The notes under the pieces were generated by a model, which saw only the letters and a list, made by a program, of their open reading frames with translations, did no database searches and was not told where the DNA came from. Made by a program: the position numbers and the translations under genes. A stretch of DNA of 64,000 bases from Saprospiraceae bacterium (GTDB taxonomy: Bacteria; Bacteroidota; Bacteroidia; Chitinophagales; Saprospiraceae), in the NCBI GenBank assembly GCA_020437105.1, contig JAGQWR010000030.1, forward strand, positions 1 to 64,000. The letters are read 5' to 3'. Shown in pieces: positions 47,362-56,699 of the stretch; positions within the stretch are counted from its first letter, which is position 1; each line of letters begins with the position of its first letter.

Positions 47362-48030
47362 ATGTCTGTGTTTAAGAATATCAAATCGTTATTTGTTTTG
47401 GAAGATGAGAACCCATCTCCAAAAACGACATCGAAATCGGAATCGAATAAAGGCGCAACAACCCCGGATTCAGGCTCTCCGGTCGTACGGGAAAGCCCTG
47501 CCGGTGTTCGTGGCCAGGTGACCATCAAATTCATGGATGTGTTATTTGCCGCCATGGAAAAAAATAACCTGGACGGATTTGATTATCTGGAGTACAAACA
47601 GTCTCTTCAGTCACTGGCTAAAATGCCAATGGATGAAGCCACCCGATACCAGTCGGCTTATGCTATGGCACAAACAATGGGAGCTACTCCTCAGAAATTA
47701 ATTCAGTCTGCTTCGCATTACATCCAGGTGCTTCAGGCAGAAGAACAAAAGTTTCAGGTAGCCCTGGCCAACCAAAAACAACAGAACATCTCCGAAAAGG
47801 AAAAACTGGCCAACGATTTGGATCTGACGGTGAAGACGAAAGAAGAGGCGATCAAAAAATTGCAACAGGAAATAGAAACGACACGAAAACAGCAGCAAAG
47901 CCTCCGCAAGGAAGTGGAATCAGCAACCATAAAGGTCGAAAGTACCAAGAATGATTTTATTGCTTCTTTCAATAAATTGGTCAGTCAGATCAATCAGGAT
48001 ATGGAGGCGATGAAGAACTATCTTAAGTAA
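47362..48030 (+). CDS. Cytoplasmic coiled-coil protein, first gene of the SBP-OmpA locus
   Basis: 222 residues, no signal peptide or membrane helix. A Ser/Thr/Pro-rich N-terminus (about 15-55) is followed by a compact helical block (VTIKFMDVLFAAMEKNNLDG, DYLEYKQSLQSLAKMPMDEATRYQSAYAMA, KLIQSASHYIQVLQAE) and a long coiled coil (about 130-220) with heptads such as EIETTRKQQQSLRKEVESAT. I do not know a family name. The next gene encodes a membrane coiled-coil protein, so a pair acting at the inner membrane is plausible. Start ATG 47362; the divergent glycosyltransferase operon starts 260 bases away. Confidence 0.75.
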   Translation: MSVFKNIKSLFVLEDENPSPKTTSKSESNKGATTPDSGSPVVRESPAGVRGQVTIKFMDVLFAAMEKNNLDGFDYLEYKQSLQSLAKMPMDEATRYQSAYAMAQTMGATPQKLIQSASHYIQVLQAEEQKFQVALANQKQQNISEKEKLANDLDLTVKTKEEAIKKLQQEIETTRKQQQSLRKEVESATIKVESTKNDFIASFNKLVSQINQDMEAMKNYLK

Positions 48031-48058: not shown

Positions 48059-48114
48059 TTTTTAGTGCTGGATTGCGGCTGCTTGAAACAATCAGGCTAC
48101 ATGTAAATTATACA

Positions 48115-49143
48115 ATGGTGGACACAAACGAATTTAAACCAAAATCATTTTGGAAACGCCCGGAGGGTGTAACCGGCGCGATCTTCCTGGGGGGGCTGAT
48201 TATTGGAGGCGGGTATTTACTCTATGCCATCCTGCCGATATTGGTGGGTTTGGCGGCTAATACGCTTTACCTGGCCTTGATGCTGGTTGCCTTTGCGGCA
48301 CTGGTATTTGTCGTGCTCGACCCCAAAGCCCGGAACCTGATCTCCTATATGTACAAGAGTGTCATGCGTTGGGTTACCAGCCTTTTCATCCAAATTGATC
48401 CGATCGGAATACTAAAGTCCTATGTAGAAGACCTGGAAGACAACCTGAAGAAGATGAACAAACAAATCAACCAGTTGCGTGGCCAAATGCACAAGCTGGG
48501 AGAGATTATCTTCAACAACAAAAAAGCGATCAAGGATAATCTGGAATTGGCCTCTGAAGCCAGAGAGCGGAATAAAGACAGTCAGATGATTCTCAAATCC
48601 CGGAAAGCAGGACGCTTGAAGGAATCGAATGTACGTCTGGAAGATCTGTATCACAAGATGGAAGTACTCTATCGGGTACTTAGCAAGATGTATGAGAATT
48701 CGGAGGTGATGAAGGAAGACATCAAAGATCAGGTCATGGTCAAAGAGCAGGAGCGCAAAGCCATCCACGCCAGTAATTCTGCCATGAAATCAGCGATGAA
48801 TATTATCGCCGGTAATACAGACGCACGCTATATGTTTGATATGGCCCTGGAAGCAATCGCCAATGATGTCTCAGAAAAAGTCGGCGAAATGGAGCAATTC
48901 ATGGAAATGTCTTCTAATTTCATGGAGTCTGTTGATTTACAAAACGGCATTTTTGAAGAGGAAGGCCTGCGGATGTTGGAAAAATGGGAAAAAGAAGGCG
49001 TCTCCCGAATTCTTGGAGAAGAAAAATCGACGCTTCTGTTAGAAGCACAGGACGAAGGCAATGTTTTGGATCTGAATGCGCCTGTGAAACGCGCTACACC
49101 CGAAGCAGAGCGGATTAATCAATATGACAGCTTCTTCGATTAA
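48115..49143 (+). CDS. Two-TM coiled-coil membrane protein, PspA-like in appearance
   Basis: 342 residues from the ATG at 48115; the upstream 14 codons of the frame begin at TTG and run through repeat-like sequence. Two membrane helices at about 18-70 (GAIFLGGLIIGGGYLLYAILPILV, LYLALMLVAFAALVFVVL) precede a long helical domain: SYVEDLEDNLKKMNKQINQLR, LGEIIFNNKKAIKDNL, then a Lys/Arg-rich stretch, MYENSEVMKEDIKDQV, ARYMFDMALEAIANDV and a terminal RMLEKWEKEG. The opening DxxxxLKxYxEDLEDxLxKM resembles PspA/IM30 in its start, but the membrane helices are extra. PspA kinship is a guess needing structure comparison. Confidence 0.7.
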   Translation: MVDTNEFKPKSFWKRPEGVTGAIFLGGLIIGGGYLLYAILPILVGLAANTLYLALMLVAFAALVFVVLDPKARNLISYMYKSVMRWVTSLFIQIDPIGILKSYVEDLEDNLKKMNKQINQLRGQMHKLGEIIFNNKKAIKDNLELASEARERNKDSQMILKSRKAGRLKESNVRLEDLYHKMEVLYRVLSKMYENSEVMKEDIKDQVMVKEQERKAIHASNSAMKSAMNIIAGNTDARYMFDMALEAIANDVSEKVGEMEQFMEMSSNFMESVDLQNGIFEEEGLRMLEKWEKEGVSRILGEEKSTLLLEAQDEGNVLDLNAPVKRATPEAERINQYDSFFD

Positions 49144-49210: not shown

Positions 49211-50767
49211 ATGGCTAAGAGACTCACAACTTTTTCCAAATTCGTTATTACCCTGGTCATTGTGGCCGGTGTGTTTTTTGGTGGCAAATACATTTTGCAA
49301 AACACAGAATTTGGACAAAACCTCCTGAATAAATCCGATAATCCGGAAAACCCCAAAAAGGATAACCCGAAACCATCCGGTAATACTGATGTAATCAGTG
49401 TCGGAGTTGTAACCTGGGGTGGTTATGCGGGCGGACAATACTTTAACGAGGGCTTTGATGCTAATACAAATTCTCGTTTCTATAAAGATTACGGATTTGA
49501 AGTCGAGTTTAAGGTACTTGACGATTTTGATGCTTCCCGGGCAGCCTGGAAACGCGATGAAGTGCAACTGCTCTGGTGTACCATTGATGCCTTCCCAACC
49601 GAAGTAAACGCCCTAAAGGATTTTGATCCGGTTGTAGTCTGGCAGGCCGACTGGTCGCGCGGTGGAGATGCCATCGTAGCCCGTCGGGGAATCAATAGCG
49701 TGGCCGATCTTCGCGGAAAGCGGATCGCCGTAGCCGAATTATCTCCTTCCCATTCCTTCCTGATCTGGTTGCTGGATGCCGGCGGACTAAGTGTTAATGA
49801 TGTGGAAATAGTACCACAGTCAAGTGCCATTGATGCCGCAGAAGTATTCAAATCGCAACGCGTTGACGCAGCTGTTGTTTGGAGTCCGGATGATGAGGCT
49901 TGTTTGCGGGCTGTTGCAGGTTCCAGTGTACTGGAAAGCACCCGCTCTGCTTCCAATATCATTGCCGATGTATTCATTGCCAAGCGTTCATTCGTGGAAG
50001 CAAACAAGGATAAAATGAGGCAAATGTATGAGGGTTGGATGCGTGGTTCAGCAGAGATCAACAGCTCTGATGCCAATAAACGTAAAGCGGCACAAATCCT
50101 TTCCGAGAACTTCCCTGGCTTTACAGTAGATGACACCTACCAGGCCATCAATAATGTACGGCTGACCACTCACGGAGATAACCAAAATTTCTTTGGCTTG
50201 GATCCGAACTTCCGGGGTGTAAATGGAAACAGCCTTTATACTCGGATGGCTAATGTGTATCGGGATTTGGGTTACATCGAAGGAAGTGTTCCAAATTGGC
50301 GACTCATTGCCATGCCGGAATTAGTGGAATCAACCAACCTCTCCGGTAGCCAGCATGAGGCAGAAGGTACTAAGGAATTTTCTGAACTTGACGACCAATC
50401 CGGCCGGGACGCAGAAGCAATTGCCTCCAAACAGGTGCGTATCAATTTCCGTACAGCCGAGTATATTTTGGATGAAAATGCCAAATATATTATCGACAAG
50501 GAATTTGTAGAGATTGCAAAAGCTTTCGCGAATGCCCGTATTCGGATCGAGGGAAATACAGACAGCCAGGGTTCTCGTTCAACAAATATTGCCCTGTCCA
50601 AAAAACGGGCAGAAGCGGTGCGGGATTATCTGGTTGAAGTACACAATATGCCACGCAACCGTTTTATCGTAATCGGCAACGGACCAGATAAACCCTTGGC
50701 CTCTAATGATACGGAAAGCGGACGGGCACAAAACCGGCGCACTGATTTTGAATTGGTTCGGGAATAA
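49211..50767 (+). CDS. ABC substrate-binding protein fused to OmpA peptidoglycan-binding domain
   Basis: 518 residues. A signal-anchor helix at about 10-28 (FVITLVIVAGVFFGGKYIL, no lipobox) is followed by a Lys/Asn/Pro linker, an NMT1/TauA-type periplasmic binding domain (about 60-370: GVVTWGGYAGGQYFN, LLWCTIDAFPTEV, VADLRGKRIAVAELSPSHSF, RVDAAVVWSPDDEACLRA) and a complete OmpA-like domain (409-518: IEGNTDSQGSRSTNIALSKK with Asp451, and the Arg509-Arg510 pair in NRRTDF, which hold diaminopimelate). It should sit in the inner membrane, reach the wall, and feed the downstream permease. Such a fusion is rarely described. Ligand unknown. Confidence 0.88.
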   Translation: MAKRLTTFSKFVITLVIVAGVFFGGKYILQNTEFGQNLLNKSDNPENPKKDNPKPSGNTDVISVGVVTWGGYAGGQYFNEGFDANTNSRFYKDYGFEVEFKVLDDFDASRAAWKRDEVQLLWCTIDAFPTEVNALKDFDPVVVWQADWSRGGDAIVARRGINSVADLRGKRIAVAELSPSHSFLIWLLDAGGLSVNDVEIVPQSSAIDAAEVFKSQRVDAAVVWSPDDEACLRAVAGSSVLESTRSASNIIADVFIAKRSFVEANKDKMRQMYEGWMRGSAEINSSDANKRKAAQILSENFPGFTVDDTYQAINNVRLTTHGDNQNFFGLDPNFRGVNGNSLYTRMANVYRDLGYIEGSVPNWRLIAMPELVESTNLSGSQHEAEGTKEFSELDDQSGRDAEAIASKQVRINFRTAEYILDENAKYIIDKEFVEIAKAFANARIRIEGNTDSQGSRSTNIALSKKRAEAVRDYLVEVHNMPRNRFIVIGNGPDKPLASNDTESGRAQNRRTDFELVRE

Positions 50768-50784
50768 TTTGAAACACACACATT

Positions 50785-52476
50785 ATGTCCTTATTCACGC
50801 TCCGTGGAAATCTAAGTAAGGTCCAAAGCCTGATTCTTGGTCTGGTTGGCCTGCTTATTTTCCTGGGACTTTGGTGGCTTATGGCCGAATGGTTTGCCAT
50901 CGATAAGTCAGAATTGTCGGAGAATCCCCGGTTGGAAGAAACGGAAACAGATTTCGTACTTTCTGCTCTGGAGGATTTAGACCCGCTTGATAATAAACTG
51001 CCGGAGGATGCACAGACTGGTACTTATACCGGTCTGCGCATTCATGCACCCGGCTATGATTCTACTTCCATTGCCCTCCGCCTGGCTGATGATGCCGGCG
51101 GCCTGTTTAGTATTCATCCCAAAACAGGGGAAGTACGACTGGCAGAAGGCCCGCTCAATTACGAAGAATCGACTGTTTATACTATTGTTGCTTCCGCGGA
51201 TGCGAGTGACGGACGAAAATTCTCATCCAATTTTACGATTCAGGTTCAGGATCGAAATGAATTCTGGATAGGGCCACTCGAAGATGCCGATTCACAGGTG
51301 AATGAGGTGTCCGTATTAGCAGGTGTGGAAGAATATACGGGCTTGCAGGCTTTCGCCGAAGATCGGGATGGCACGGATAAGGTTAGTTACCGATTGCTTA
51401 ATCATGCGAAAGGGTTGTTTGCTATCGACCGGGAATCAGGTCGGGTGGTAGTGCAGGATACCGCTAAGCTGAGGCAACAGGGCCTTGGGGCCGTACCGTT
51501 AACGATTGTAGCCAACAGTACAGATTTTTCGGCCGATACGGCCAATTTTTATGTGCAGTTGATCCAGTCAAATCAGTCTGTTACCCAAGTAGCGGGTCCG
51601 GATAAGGTTTATCCTATTTTGCCGACACCCGGCCAGGTGGTCAAGTCTTTTCCATCCCTGATTCAGGATGACCATTTATGGATGCACACCTTTAAATCAA
51701 TCTGGCTGAACATGCAGGGTTATTGGTGGGCCATTCTGATTTCGATTCCGATTGGATTTGTCATTGGGTTGTTTCCGATTTTTCGGGGCATGTTTAGCAA
51801 ACAGGTTGATGCTCTGCGCTATTTACCGCTGACTGCCCTGACCGGATTGTTTATTATCTGGTTTGGGATTGAGGACCAGATGAAGATTGCCTTTTTGGCC
51901 TTTGGTATTATTGTTTACCTGCTTCCGGTAGTCGTGCAGCGGGTGGATGAGGTGGTGGACGTTTATACCCAGACTGTTTTTACGCTGGGCGCGACCAAAT
52001 GGCAGACGATTCGATCTGTTTTTATTCCTTCGGTCATGTCTAAAGTGGTTGACGACATTCGGGTATTGACAGCCATTTCCTGGACCTATATAATTATTGC
52101 TGAATTGCTCAACCGCGAAGACGGTATTGGGGCACTCATTTATATTAAGGCCCGGCAGGGGCAAATTGCAAAAGTTTTTGCGATCCTGTTGGTCATTATA
52201 CTGGTAGGGTTTATTCAGGACCGGCTTTTTGTTTATATGGATCGCCGGTTATTTCCACATAAATACCTCAAGTCGAGACTGGATGGTATCCGGGAAACTG
52301 AATATGGACTTACGGCGCTTTTCCTGTTGGTTACCCTCACTATTTTGCAAGGTATTTTCCTTCCGGGAATGGGTGCAGCTATGATGAATATTGCCATTAT
52401 CGTGGCCCTGGCTGCCTTGATCATTATCGGTTATGGAGAAATAAAATTGTTCCAAAGCCGTAAACAAACGAATTAA
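50785..52476 (+). CDS. ABC transporter permease with cadherin-like repeats in a periplasmic loop
   Basis: 563 residues. TM1 at about 15-36 is followed by some 260 periplasmic residues, then a TauC/SsuC-type permease core (about 300-500) with the coupling EAA-like loop (TLGATKWQTIRSVFIPSVMS) and C-terminal helices. The periplasmic part holds two cadherin-like units: residues 78-160 (LFSIHPKTGEVRL, LNYEES, YTIVASADAS, QVQDRNE) and 175-262 (LFAIDRESGRVVV, LTIVANSTD), each with the F-x-I-x-x-x-T/S-G core and Asp/Asn/Glu for calcium. I know no standard permease with this insert. It begins 17 bases after the SBP gene and 3 bases before the ATPase gene. Confidence 0.88.
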   Translation: MSLFTLRGNLSKVQSLILGLVGLLIFLGLWWLMAEWFAIDKSELSENPRLEETETDFVLSALEDLDPLDNKLPEDAQTGTYTGLRIHAPGYDSTSIALRLADDAGGLFSIHPKTGEVRLAEGPLNYEESTVYTIVASADASDGRKFSSNFTIQVQDRNEFWIGPLEDADSQVNEVSVLAGVEEYTGLQAFAEDRDGTDKVSYRLLNHAKGLFAIDRESGRVVVQDTAKLRQQGLGAVPLTIVANSTDFSADTANFYVQLIQSNQSVTQVAGPDKVYPILPTPGQVVKSFPSLIQDDHLWMHTFKSIWLNMQGYWWAILISIPIGFVIGLFPIFRGMFSKQVDALRYLPLTALTGLFIIWFGIEDQMKIAFLAFGIIVYLLPVVVQRVDEVVDVYTQTVFTLGATKWQTIRSVFIPSVMSKVVDDIRVLTAISWTYIIIAELLNREDGIGALIYIKARQGQIAKVFAILLVIILVGFIQDRLFVYMDRRLFPHKYLKSRLDGIRETEYGLTALFLLVTLTILQGIFLPGMGAAMMNIAIIVALAALIIIGYGEIKLFQSRKQTN

Positions 52477-52479
52477 TCC

Positions 52480-53283
52480 ATGCCGCAATTTATAGATACT
52501 CCGGATCCTAATATTATAGAACTGCGTGGCATTAACCAGTCTTACGATGGAGGCGAAAACTTCATCATTCAGGGCTTGGATTTCCTGGTAGAGGATAAAC
52601 CGGCACAAGGTCAGTTTGTGGTCATTCTGGGCATGTCTGGTTGTGGTAAATCTACCATTTTGCGCTACATCGCCGGTTTGCAGGAGCCCACTGCCGGAAA
52701 AGTACTGATACATGATAAACCGGTCAGTCCCGATAATCGGGTAGGGATGGTGTTTCAACAATATTCTTCTCTGCCCTGGATGACGGTTTTGGAAAATGTG
52801 TCCCTGGCACTGAAGTATAAAGGCATCTCTGCCGCCGAACGTCGTAAGCGTGCCATGGAATTAATTGAAATGGTTGGACTCGCCGGCCATGAACATAAAT
52901 TTGCCCAATACCCTACGCTTTCGGGTGGTCAGCTACAACGTGTGGCCATTGCGCGTAGCCTCATCGCCAATCCCGAAATCATTTTGATGGACGAGCCCTT
53001 TGGCGCCCTGGATGTTAATACAAGGCTACAAATGCAAGACCTCCTGGCAGATCTCTGGTTGAAGTTTCATCCGACCATCATTTTTGTAACCCACGACATC
53101 TCGGAAGCTGTTTACCTCGGAGATGATATTTATATAATGAAATCTGCTCCTTCCCGTTTTGTAGAGCACATTAAAGTAGATCTGCCTTTCGAACGAAATC
53201 GGGATACGAAACGCGACCCGCACTTTGTGGAGCTGGTACGGGAAGTTGAAGACCGTATGGTACGGGTGGCCGAATTGGGGTAA
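52480..53283 (+). CDS. ABC transporter ATP-binding protein (TauB/SsuB/NrtD type)
   Basis: 267 residues. Walker A GMSGCGKST (51-59), Q-loop FQQYSSLPWM, signature LSGGQLQRVAIARSL, Walker B IILMDEPFGALD, H-loop VTHDISEAV. The C-terminal segment (DLPFERNRDTKRDPHFVEL) is the usual end of the taurine/nitrate/sulfonate group. It energises the cadherin-containing permease just upstream (3-base gap). All catalytic residues are present, so ATP hydrolysis is expected. Confidence 0.94.
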   Translation: MPQFIDTPDPNIIELRGINQSYDGGENFIIQGLDFLVEDKPAQGQFVVILGMSGCGKSTILRYIAGLQEPTAGKVLIHDKPVSPDNRVGMVFQQYSSLPWMTVLENVSLALKYKGISAAERRKRAMELIEMVGLAGHEHKFAQYPTLSGGQLQRVAIARSLIANPEIILMDEPFGALDVNTRLQMQDLLADLWLKFHPTIIFVTHDISEAVYLGDDIYIMKSAPSRFVEHIKVDLPFERNRDTKRDPHFVELVREVEDRMVRVAELG

Positions 53284-53804: not shown

Positions 53805-56699
53805 ATGTTAGCATCCACACCACAGTTCTTTTTGGAATTCAGCTTCCTGCTGCTGGTGTTTTATTTGTGTATTCAAAATCTAAACCTGCTGCCAACAGAG
53901 CGAGCCAGTTTGCTTGCCGGCATTCCGCTGGTGGCTTTTTTACTCCCCGGCTTTCGATTCGCTTTTTCAATGGATTCTCCGGCTATGATTGGCTGGGCTG
54001 CCGGTTCCTTTTCCTGGTGGGAAGCAGACTGGGGAGTCTTTGCGCGAAATGCGAGTCTGGCCGATTTGATATTAATCGCTTATTGGCTCGGATTTGCCTG
54101 GTTTCTGGCCCGTTTTCTGGATCAGCTTGCCCGGCTTGGGCTTTCCAATAATGGCTTTTCCGTAAATCGCTTTTTTAATCGATCGTTTGATCCGGCGCAG
54201 GCACATCAACGGGCTATCGCTGCTTTACTTGTTCTGGGGCGCCCGGAAGATTCCCGGATGTTGGAGCAGGCACAAATTCAGTTGCCCGGGCGGTTGCACC
54301 GGGGTCATTTTTTTGAAGTAGCATTGGTGGAATTGATGGTACTGATCAATTGGTGGAATCCATTGATTCATCTCTATAGGAAAAAGTACCTTGGGCAAAT
54401 CCGGCTGGAGTTGGACCGGCAGTTGATGCCGTCACGGATTGTTTATTCCAAGGAGCAGGATCAAATTCATTTGGCGCTTAGGCGAATTATAGCCTCTTGC
54501 GCGGGTTTTCTCTTATTCATTAACCTGCCCCTTCCCGGCGCAGAAACTTATGTGCAGTTTTTCCGGAACATAGAAATAAAGAGTCAAACGGCATTCCTGG
54601 ATGATCCGACCCTAATGGAACCCACTGCTACCCTTGAGTGGGGCGGACATGAAATTCCATTGGCAGCCGTACATTCAGACGCCACGCTGGCTTATGAGTT
54701 ATATTATCTCCAGCCTTTCGAGTTTTATATGCTGCGCCAGTATCACATGCGCCTGCGGGTAGGTGCAGCACATCCTGAAATTTTATCCCTGGTCGGGCGT
54801 ATTGGCGTGCCCCATTCTAATGAGTTATCGCTTATCGAATCGAATGCTGACTTTGAAGAACGTTTGCCGCGCCTGGTATCTATGGGTGAGCAGACCCTCT
54901 TTCTTCGTTTGGAAGGAAAAGACGGGCGCACCTGGGTAGCTGTTCTTGCGATTTCTGAAACGGCTCAGGTATATAACGAAGAAAACGGCATGAATGCGAT
55001 CGCCCGGGATGTAGCGGGTATTGAGCAGATTAAAAAAGCTAAACCGACGCCTGTTACTCCTTATCGTTTTGTCTGGGGTAACCTGGAAATTCCCCTGGAA
55101 AAATATGCCAATCCGGATGTATATCGTGGATTTTTAGAGCTTCCGCTGGATAGTTTCCTGAATTCCGTGTCGAGCCAGATGCGTTTCTTTGCCCGTGACT
55201 CCCTTCTGGAAATGGAGCATCTGACAATCCGTGCGTATGGGGATCCCAGTTGGCGGTCTGTGATCTGGTATCCGGAAATCGTTGATGATGCGGCGACCCT
55301 GGATGAATGGGTGAGTCGGGATGACCTGGCTGCAAAGTTGACTCCCGGGTCAGAAATTACCTTGTACGGACGAGCGGGCGATATGTATGTGAATACGGTA
55401 GCGATCCGAATACATGATCCCAATGAGCTTTACCAACCGCTTTTCCGGGCGCCGGAGATCAATCAGGACCCCGCGGAGTTTGATTACCAGTTGATTAACA
55501 GACCTGGTTATGAATCCATTGTTCGCATGGATACCCTGCAGGAAAGTAGCCACCGGATTGTAAATATGTATCGCAATAAGCCGGATTATCGCATTGTGCA
55601 TGTACCTGGCTTCCGAACCAACGAACGCCTTGTTAATGCCTGGGAATCTGAAACGGAGTTTATCGAATCACAGCCCTATTTGTCGGTAGCCGATTTTAAT
55701 ATTTTTTCGGAATTGCCTGAATATCATGACTTTCAGGATTCTTTGGTACAGCTTAACTGGGGCGAGATGTGGGCGATGCCAAACAGTGAGGTTTACGAAC
55801 CCAACGAATATGAATTAAACCGCCGGGAATCGCTTCGTTTATGGATTGGAAGTCGATCTTTTACCATTGAAAAGGCCACCGTGGATTTTGCCAGAGATGG
55901 TGAAGTGCGGGGACTCTACTTTTTGGATTCGACCGATCTTCAAACCCCACATGTGCTTCCGAAAGCTGAACCTGAAACCAGTGTATTCTTTAAAAATCTG
56001 GTTATTCGCGACAGCGCCGGAACAGCTTATGTGCTGCCTGTTATTTTTGGATTTCATATTGGTAAAGAAACAAATCCGGGCGATTGGAATATTTTAATAG
56101 ATGCTGACACGGAAGGGCGATCGGAGCGTACATTCGAACCCGGGTCTTATCTCTTTCAGCATTATCGACTTTCGGAATTAGTAGAGGAATTGCTTGGCGT
56201 ACGTGCAAACCGCCTTACTTTTGAGAACCAAAAACAGGATCCCTGGGTTATGGTTCGTTTTATTGGCGAACACTATCGAGAATCCCAGGCTACTAAAATT
56301 ATCTTGCGTTCGCTGATGAAGAAATATGGCTTTGTCGTCAAATCAGAACGCCTTAATGGTCCGGTGGCGCGTGTTCAGGTAAATTTTGAAGATAAATTAC
56401 TGGAGTCCAGATCTGATACTTTGACGATTGCAGAAGGAGATAAAATGCAGGTTTTTGACCCGGAAGGTTTTCATCTGCTCCGTGGAATCACGTTGGTAGA
56501 GCTTACACACCTTCTGGAAGATCGTTTCGGCCAAATTTTTGAAATGTATCCAACGCCTTATAATAATATCCCTTTTAACTTTTCTTTGGTGCTGGATAAC
56601 CTGCCGTCTGTAAAAAAACAATTACTCGACCAATATGGCCTCCAGGTTTTTGAAGGCGATTGGAGTTATTATGCCGTAAAGGTGCAGTTTGGAAATTAA
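53805..56699 (+). CDS. Large membrane protein with degenerate M56 (BlaR1-like) domain and repeats
   Basis: 964 residues. Four membrane helices (about 9-25, 35-52, 88-105, 225-240) enclose a BlaR1/M56-like cytosolic loop: after RLHRGHFFEVALVELMVL comes NWWNPLIHLYRKKY and LELDRQ, which align with the family's WFNP...HExxAD tail, but the HExxH zinc motif is lacking, so peptidase activity is doubtful. Periplasmic part: three related modules starting WGGHEIPL (279), WGNLEIPL (423) and NWGEMWAMP (650), then a C-terminal module (780-964) with LVELTHLLEDRFGQIFEMY, similar to DUF3738-like ends. No blaI-type repressor gene adjoins. Role unknown; signalling across the membrane is a guess. Confidence 0.7.
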   Translation: MLASTPQFFLEFSFLLLVFYLCIQNLNLLPTERASLLAGIPLVAFLLPGFRFAFSMDSPAMIGWAAGSFSWWEADWGVFARNASLADLILIAYWLGFAWFLARFLDQLARLGLSNNGFSVNRFFNRSFDPAQAHQRAIAALLVLGRPEDSRMLEQAQIQLPGRLHRGHFFEVALVELMVLINWWNPLIHLYRKKYLGQIRLELDRQLMPSRIVYSKEQDQIHLALRRIIASCAGFLLFINLPLPGAETYVQFFRNIEIKSQTAFLDDPTLMEPTATLEWGGHEIPLAAVHSDATLAYELYYLQPFEFYMLRQYHMRLRVGAAHPEILSLVGRIGVPHSNELSLIESNADFEERLPRLVSMGEQTLFLRLEGKDGRTWVAVLAISETAQVYNEENGMNAIARDVAGIEQIKKAKPTPVTPYRFVWGNLEIPLEKYANPDVYRGFLELPLDSFLNSVSSQMRFFARDSLLEMEHLTIRAYGDPSWRSVIWYPEIVDDAATLDEWVSRDDLAAKLTPGSEITLYGRAGDMYVNTVAIRIHDPNELYQPLFRAPEINQDPAEFDYQLINRPGYESIVRMDTLQESSHRIVNMYRNKPDYRIVHVPGFRTNERLVNAWESETEFIESQPYLSVADFNIFSELPEYHDFQDSLVQLNWGEMWAMPNSEVYEPNEYELNRRESLRLWIGSRSFTIEKATVDFARDGEVRGLYFLDSTDLQTPHVLPKAEPETSVFFKNLVIRDSAGTAYVLPVIFGFHIGKETNPGDWNILIDADTEGRSERTFEPGSYLFQHYRLSELVEELLGVRANRLTFENQKQDPWVMVRFIGEHYRESQATKIILRSLMKKYGFVVKSERLNGPVARVQVNFEDKLLESRSDTLTIAEGDKMQVFDPEGFHLLRGITLVELTHLLEDRFGQIFEMYPTPYNNIPFNFSLVLDNLPSVKKQLLDQYGLQVFEGDWSYYAVKVQFGN

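Follow-up and report, generated by a model that had tools for sequence, protein, structure and literature searches.

The locus analysed here raises the question of what two cadherin-like repeats are doing inside an ABC transporter permease. Type I importer permeases are usually compact. In our window, the whole stretch of 64,000 nucleotides of a Saprospiraceae bacterium that was analysed, an intact open reading frame at 50785-52476 encodes a permease of 563 amino acids, in which the original prediction had recognised the repeats from the letters of the sequence. The gene belongs to an operon whose order is kept in many relatives and comprises the following genes:

47362..48030, plus strand: coiled-coil-rich protein of 222 amino acids (g222) at the operon head, a position before the coiled-coil gene that it also has at many orthologous loci
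48073..49143, plus strand: coiled-coil protein with two transmembrane (TM) segments, possibly PspA/Snf7-like
49211..50767, plus strand: binding protein anchored by one N-terminal TM segment, with a C-terminal OmpA domain (Pfam NMT1 and OmpA; 19-orthologue alignment)
50785..52476, plus strand: ABC permease whose TM1-core loop contains two cadherin-type domains (Pfam BPD_transp_1 and Cadherin, both above cut-offs)
52480..53283, plus strand: ABC ATPase of the permease operon (Pfam ABC_tran)

The permease has the marks of a type I ABC importer, namely the BPD_transp_1 profile (residues 321-489, E 1.8e-12, 47.8 bits against a cut-off of 26.4), the core fold, which in the predicted structure superposes on CmpB with a TM-score of 0.69 and an rmsd of 3.3, and an adjoining binding protein and ATPase. 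By profile it is a TauC/CmpB-type permease, yet not TauC, SsuC or SaoP proper by the NCBIfam equivalog cut-offs, below which all its scores fall (SaoP 99.1 of 295 bits, TauC 73.3 of 342, SsuC 53.7 of 347). With TauC, SsuC, NrtB and CmpB it shares the core fold, the profile and the operon with binding protein and ATPase, whereas it adds two C-terminal TM helices and, in the loop that separates TM1 from the core, about 230 residues that hold both Cadherin stretches. This loop lies outside the cytoplasm, as judged from the basic N-terminus, the single TM segment at residues 16-34 and the TauC/CmpB-type core that follows; the predicted layout of one extracytoplasmic loop before a normal TauC-like core is thus borne out by topology, profiles and the CmpB superposition. 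The parts of the permease are:

50830..50886, plus strand: TM1 (residues 16-34 by hydropathy; predicted helix 12-36)
50968..51258, plus strand: cadherin-type domain EC1 (residues 62-158; best Pfam Cadherin stretch 73-154; seven strands in the model)
51259..51570, plus strand: cadherin-type domain EC2 (residues 159-262; second Cadherin stretch; seven strands in the model; aligns to adhesin repeats)
51607..52275, plus strand: conserved permease core (residues 275-497; 51-orthologue alignment; CmpB fold)
52288..52470, plus strand: pair of additional TM helices at the C-terminus (residues 502-562; helices predicted at 502-525 and at 527-562; hydropathy)

The two extra helices follow the six-helix core, and several other permease clades stop before them.

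The cadherin assignment of the loop is carried by both profiles and structure. Pfam Cadherin (PF00028) matches the protein in two stretches, with 40.6 bits over the whole protein against a cut-off of 28.8 (E 3.4e-10), and the same double match is found in two other genomes, at L021 (42.8 bits) and L022 (55.2 bits); NCBIfam holds no good model for the insert. An AlphaFold2 model of the insert alone (residues 51-277) consists of two seven-strand Greek-key sandwiches in tandem, with pLDDT mostly between 60 and 90, and the top 50 Foldseek matches in the PDB are all EC tandems of cadherins and protocadherins (best E 2.8e-11), so that a fold other than cadherin/Ig was not found among them. Superposition on solved EC tandems gave Z scores up to 13.0 over 202 aligned residues, with an rmsd of 16 (about 15 to most tandems) that is high because the angle between the domains differs, and this angle is unreliable in a model built without calcium. 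In the model of the full permease EC1 is of low confidence (pLDDT 40-66), and its fold therefore rests on the insert-alone model and the profiles. Taken as a whole, these results confirm that the gene at 50785-52476 encodes a permease with two tandem cadherin-type domains in a periplasmic loop. The boundaries first proposed for the repeats, 78-160 and 175-262, were right to within the first strands, the domains actually spanning about 62-158 and 159-262.

The nearest sequences to the insert, retrieved by tblastn against plasmids, are repeat proteins of alphaproteobacteria and Hymenobacter, RTX/VCBS-type adhesins such as Palleronia WP_317376853.1 and Hymenobacter WP_324680612.1. Their repeats carry the same signature as the insert (GRFAID..TG-x-VTV..LDYE and others) and are 29-45% identical to it per repeat; one of the matched proteins adjoins a type I secretion gene. 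The pair is for this reason of the bacterial adhesin-repeat kind and not an animal-like cadherin. In the adhesins the repeats stand in large secreted proteins, whereas the permease has only two, enclosed in the loop of a membrane protein. Animal EC tandems (cadherin-23, protocadherin-15, E-cadherin) have the same domain fold and the same layout of predicted inter-domain calcium motifs, but they are only about 20% identical, bacterial repeats are closer, and the permease pair is periplasmic with no sign of an adhesive strand-swap. With only 29% identity, the window's EC1 and EC2 are less alike than either is to its counterpart in the other two permeases, which indicates that the pair predates the split of those genera. 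A donor in the same genome was not found, the permease gene being its only Pfam Cadherin match, and the GC content of the insert resembles that of the window and thus gives no sign of recent transfer.

The permease occurs in 231 of the 398 genomes of the family Saprospiraceae, and a search for other permeases with the insert found three in the family, those of G000, G001 and G028, which belong to two genera. Cadherin searches of the family (398 genomes) and the class (315 genomes) returned only these three permeases and open reading frames of 1275-6042 amino acids, and the one of the latter that was read proved to be a repeat protein; a phylum-wide search at the strict limit of 1e-30, which says nothing on distant permeases, returned the window's own permease alone. 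In other permeases the TM1-core loop spans about 8 to 55 residues, the long-loop clades described below excepted. In a tree built from the core alone, the three cadherin-bearing permeases form one group (support 84) nested among permeases with loops of about 45 residues, and a single, derived gain of the insert is therefore most likely. A chimeric contig that fused an adhesin fragment to a permease might be suspected in draft assemblies of many contigs such as these, but this explanation is practically refuted, since three genomes from two genera, each assembled separately, show the same in-frame arrangement, and their sequences are divergent and under purifying selection. Comparison of the window with L021 gives dN/dS ratios of 0.14 (EC1) and 0.25 (EC2), rough values because dS is high, and by these ratios the insert is under purifying selection, although such selection could reflect folding alone and to that extent counts against a specific role. 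Bacterial cadherin repeats and this type of transporter are each known; the open-access literature yielded no case of the two combined.

Calcium binding is central to cadherin architecture: the site between two EC domains is formed by the xEx, DxE and DxNDN motifs of the first domain and the DxD and xDx motifs of the second. Comparison with this pattern yielded a plausible predicted site at the joint between EC1 and EC2, the residues of which are invariant in the three inserts:

51004..51006, plus strand: E74, predicted calcium ligand of EC1, xEx type
51163..51165, plus strand: E127, predicted calcium ligand of EC1, DxE type
51250..51261, plus strand: D156-x-N158-E159, predicted calcium linker, DxNDN type
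51361..51369, plus strand: D193-x-D195, predicted calcium ligands of EC2, DxD type
51523..51525, plus strand: D247, predicted calcium ligand of EC2, xDx type

All five inner motifs are present, DxNDN in the bacterial form DxNE, and all eight inner ligands (E74, E127, D156, N158, E159, D193, D195 and D247 in the numbering of the window) are conserved; the first D of DxE is N125 in the window and was left out of the eight. Ligands at the outer edges are lost or variable in eight of nine cases (DxD of EC1; xEx, DxE and the terminal DxNDN of EC2), the sole one kept being the aspartate of the EC1 xDx. The difference between inner (8/8) and outer (1/9) invariance is significant (Fisher p 0.0004), and the chance of finding eight D/E/N columns, drawn at random, without any variation is 0.0005; these values are suggestive and not proof because the insert is represented by only three sequences. 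Loss of the outer ligands is expected for a pair and gives no reason to deny the cadherin fold. The adhesins differ here too from the permease pair, which keeps only the ligands of the inner joint, and the pattern is suggestive of an array-derived pair cut back to its one internal joint. The insert would thus bind calcium at the EC1-EC2 joint. In RTX adhesins, calcium in the linkers stiffens tandem repeats (PMC7493085), and bacterial cadherin domains are reported to be capable of calcium-dependent homophilic and heterophilic binding and of carbohydrate binding (PMC12153261).

The cadherin pair is not the only domain found at this place. Six genomes of family f12, which belongs to the same order (G047, G889, G902, G873, G885 and G899; permeases L135, L142, L143, L144, L145 and L146), have a TM1-core loop of about 150 residues, and a profile of five of these loops matches GroEL apical domains with an E-value of 2.7e-12, the best match being a reconstructed chaperonin of the Bacteroidetes group; a single-sequence phmmer search reached 3.7e-5. 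These permeases form one clade (support 95) in the core tree, and their neighbour has a loop of seven residues. That an ABC permease should have a minichaperone-like domain in the periplasm may surprise more than the cadherin pair, and no GroEL-apical permease was found in open-access text either. The TM1-core loop has thus received domains on at least two occasions, accommodating them whole, and can be regarded as a site where insertions are tolerated; it looks like a socket for new contact domains because an unrelated GroEL apical domain fills the same loop in another family. As separate observations, the insert of L017 gave no significant Pfam match, and its reading as ExbD/TolR-like was dropped when a profile search returned the GroEL apical domain; in genus g10 (L128, L129 and L130), a third clade, the loop measures about 92-95 residues, has a helical look and was assigned to no known family.

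This permissiveness bears on the reading in which a foreign pair sits in the loop as a tolerated passenger, without a partner, with selection acting on its folding alone, since a misfolded pair would harm the permease. The rarity of the insert (3 of 231), the spread of loop lengths from about 8 to about 240 residues across permeases and the unrelated domains of other clades agree with it, and a structural calcium site is expected under it too. Set against this are the retention of the pair through the divergence of two genera (37% identity in EC1 and 38% in EC2 between the window and L022) and the invariance of all inner ligands, and we regard a passenger as unlikely, though a serious contender.

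The operon is of a type described by Ravi et al. (2024), who suggested that ESCRT-like membrane remodelling and solute transport are linked (PMC11237479). The operon of that study and ours have in common the ABC ATPase, the permease, the PBPB-OmpA protein and a coiled-coil membrane protein in one operon; cadherin domains are not mentioned in the paper, and in our locus no AAA+ gene lies between the operon genes and kinship to PspA/Snf7 is not confirmed by profiles. PspA_IM30 matches four of 18 orthologues of the two-TM coiled-coil protein, the best at only 0.0079, and a PDB profile search with this protein gave no match. Compared across genomes, binding protein and permease go together: a full-length binding protein occurs in 14 of 16 permease genomes, with one more partial at a contig end and the last being the fragmented G028, and in one of seven genomes that lack the permease. 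At L022 the end of the contig truncates the operon. In many genomes (L023, L025, L027, L028 and others) the permease and ATPase genes lie apart from the binding-protein and coiled-coil genes, all being present.

We propose, tentatively and at somewhat short of an even chance, that an adhesin-type pair was inserted once and was kept, and that it furnishes calcium-stiffened contact arms for the permease of a wall-tethered importer. Two bacterial adhesin-type cadherin repeats would have entered the permissive periplasmic loop a single time, in the ancestor of the two related genera, and EC1 and EC2 would fold together, with a single calcium site at their joint. The presence of just one permease gene in the operon makes a homodimeric transporter probable, and two arms per complex would therefore stand beside the docking face of the binding protein. 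Since both ends of the insert return to the membrane through linkers of about 25 and 15 residues, the pair would not form an upright free rod unless these linkers stretch. The arms would most likely act as calcium-stiffened modules that touch peptidoglycan or the tethered binding protein, a partner which the original prediction had also suggested and whose co-occurrence with the permease speaks for this reading, and such contacts could help to keep the parts of the transporter in register; the binding protein itself is predicted to be fixed by its TM anchor and OmpA domain, and contact with it or with the wall would be the simplest use. A necessary role of the domains is argued against by the 228 of 231 family permeases that lack them, which implies that the transporter works without them, and by the alignment of 19 orthologues, in which no change of the binding protein tracks the insert in the two readable cadherin-bearing genomes.

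Other uses of the arms were weighed. The pairs of two subunits, or of neighbouring transporters, might bind each other and so cluster the transporter, as the original prediction suggested, in keeping with the two copies expected per transporter and with the homophilic binding known for some bacterial cadherin domains (cited in PMC12153261); but likeness of fold does not carry adhesion with it, most of the solved likenesses being only about 20% identical, and we think self-association quite improbable. The pair might instead bind peptidoglycan or another polysaccharide and anchor the permease to the wall beside the OmpA domain. Carbohydrate binding is reported for the cadherin domains of Saccharophagus CabC/CabD (cited in PMC12153261), and an action on exopolysaccharide for the rhizobial cadherin-like Rap proteins (PMC9298526, PMC5061743), but no glycan-binding site was identified in the insert and the operon already has a peptidoglycan domain in OmpA, which makes a glycan module very doubtful. 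Broader than our proposal of contact arms is the view that the loop serves as a modular socket, filled in separate lineages with unrelated protein-binding domains (the cadherin pair, the GroEL apical domain) because the transporter must engage a periplasmic protein or wall partner. We judge it improbable; if it were true, this wall-tethered, possibly PspA/ESCRT-linked transporter would do more than import solutes and could, for example, be an envelope machine with mechanical coupling. The cadherin- and chaperone-loop permeases are natural chimeras with which to probe what this OmpA-linked transporter touches outside the membrane.

Downstream of the operon, at 53805-56699, lies a gene for a protein of 964 amino acids with four TM segments and no Pfam match, which follows the operon in the window and at L021 and was not seen at the other loci. 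By eye, its N-terminal part is like an M56/BlaR1-type membrane protein without an intact HExxH.
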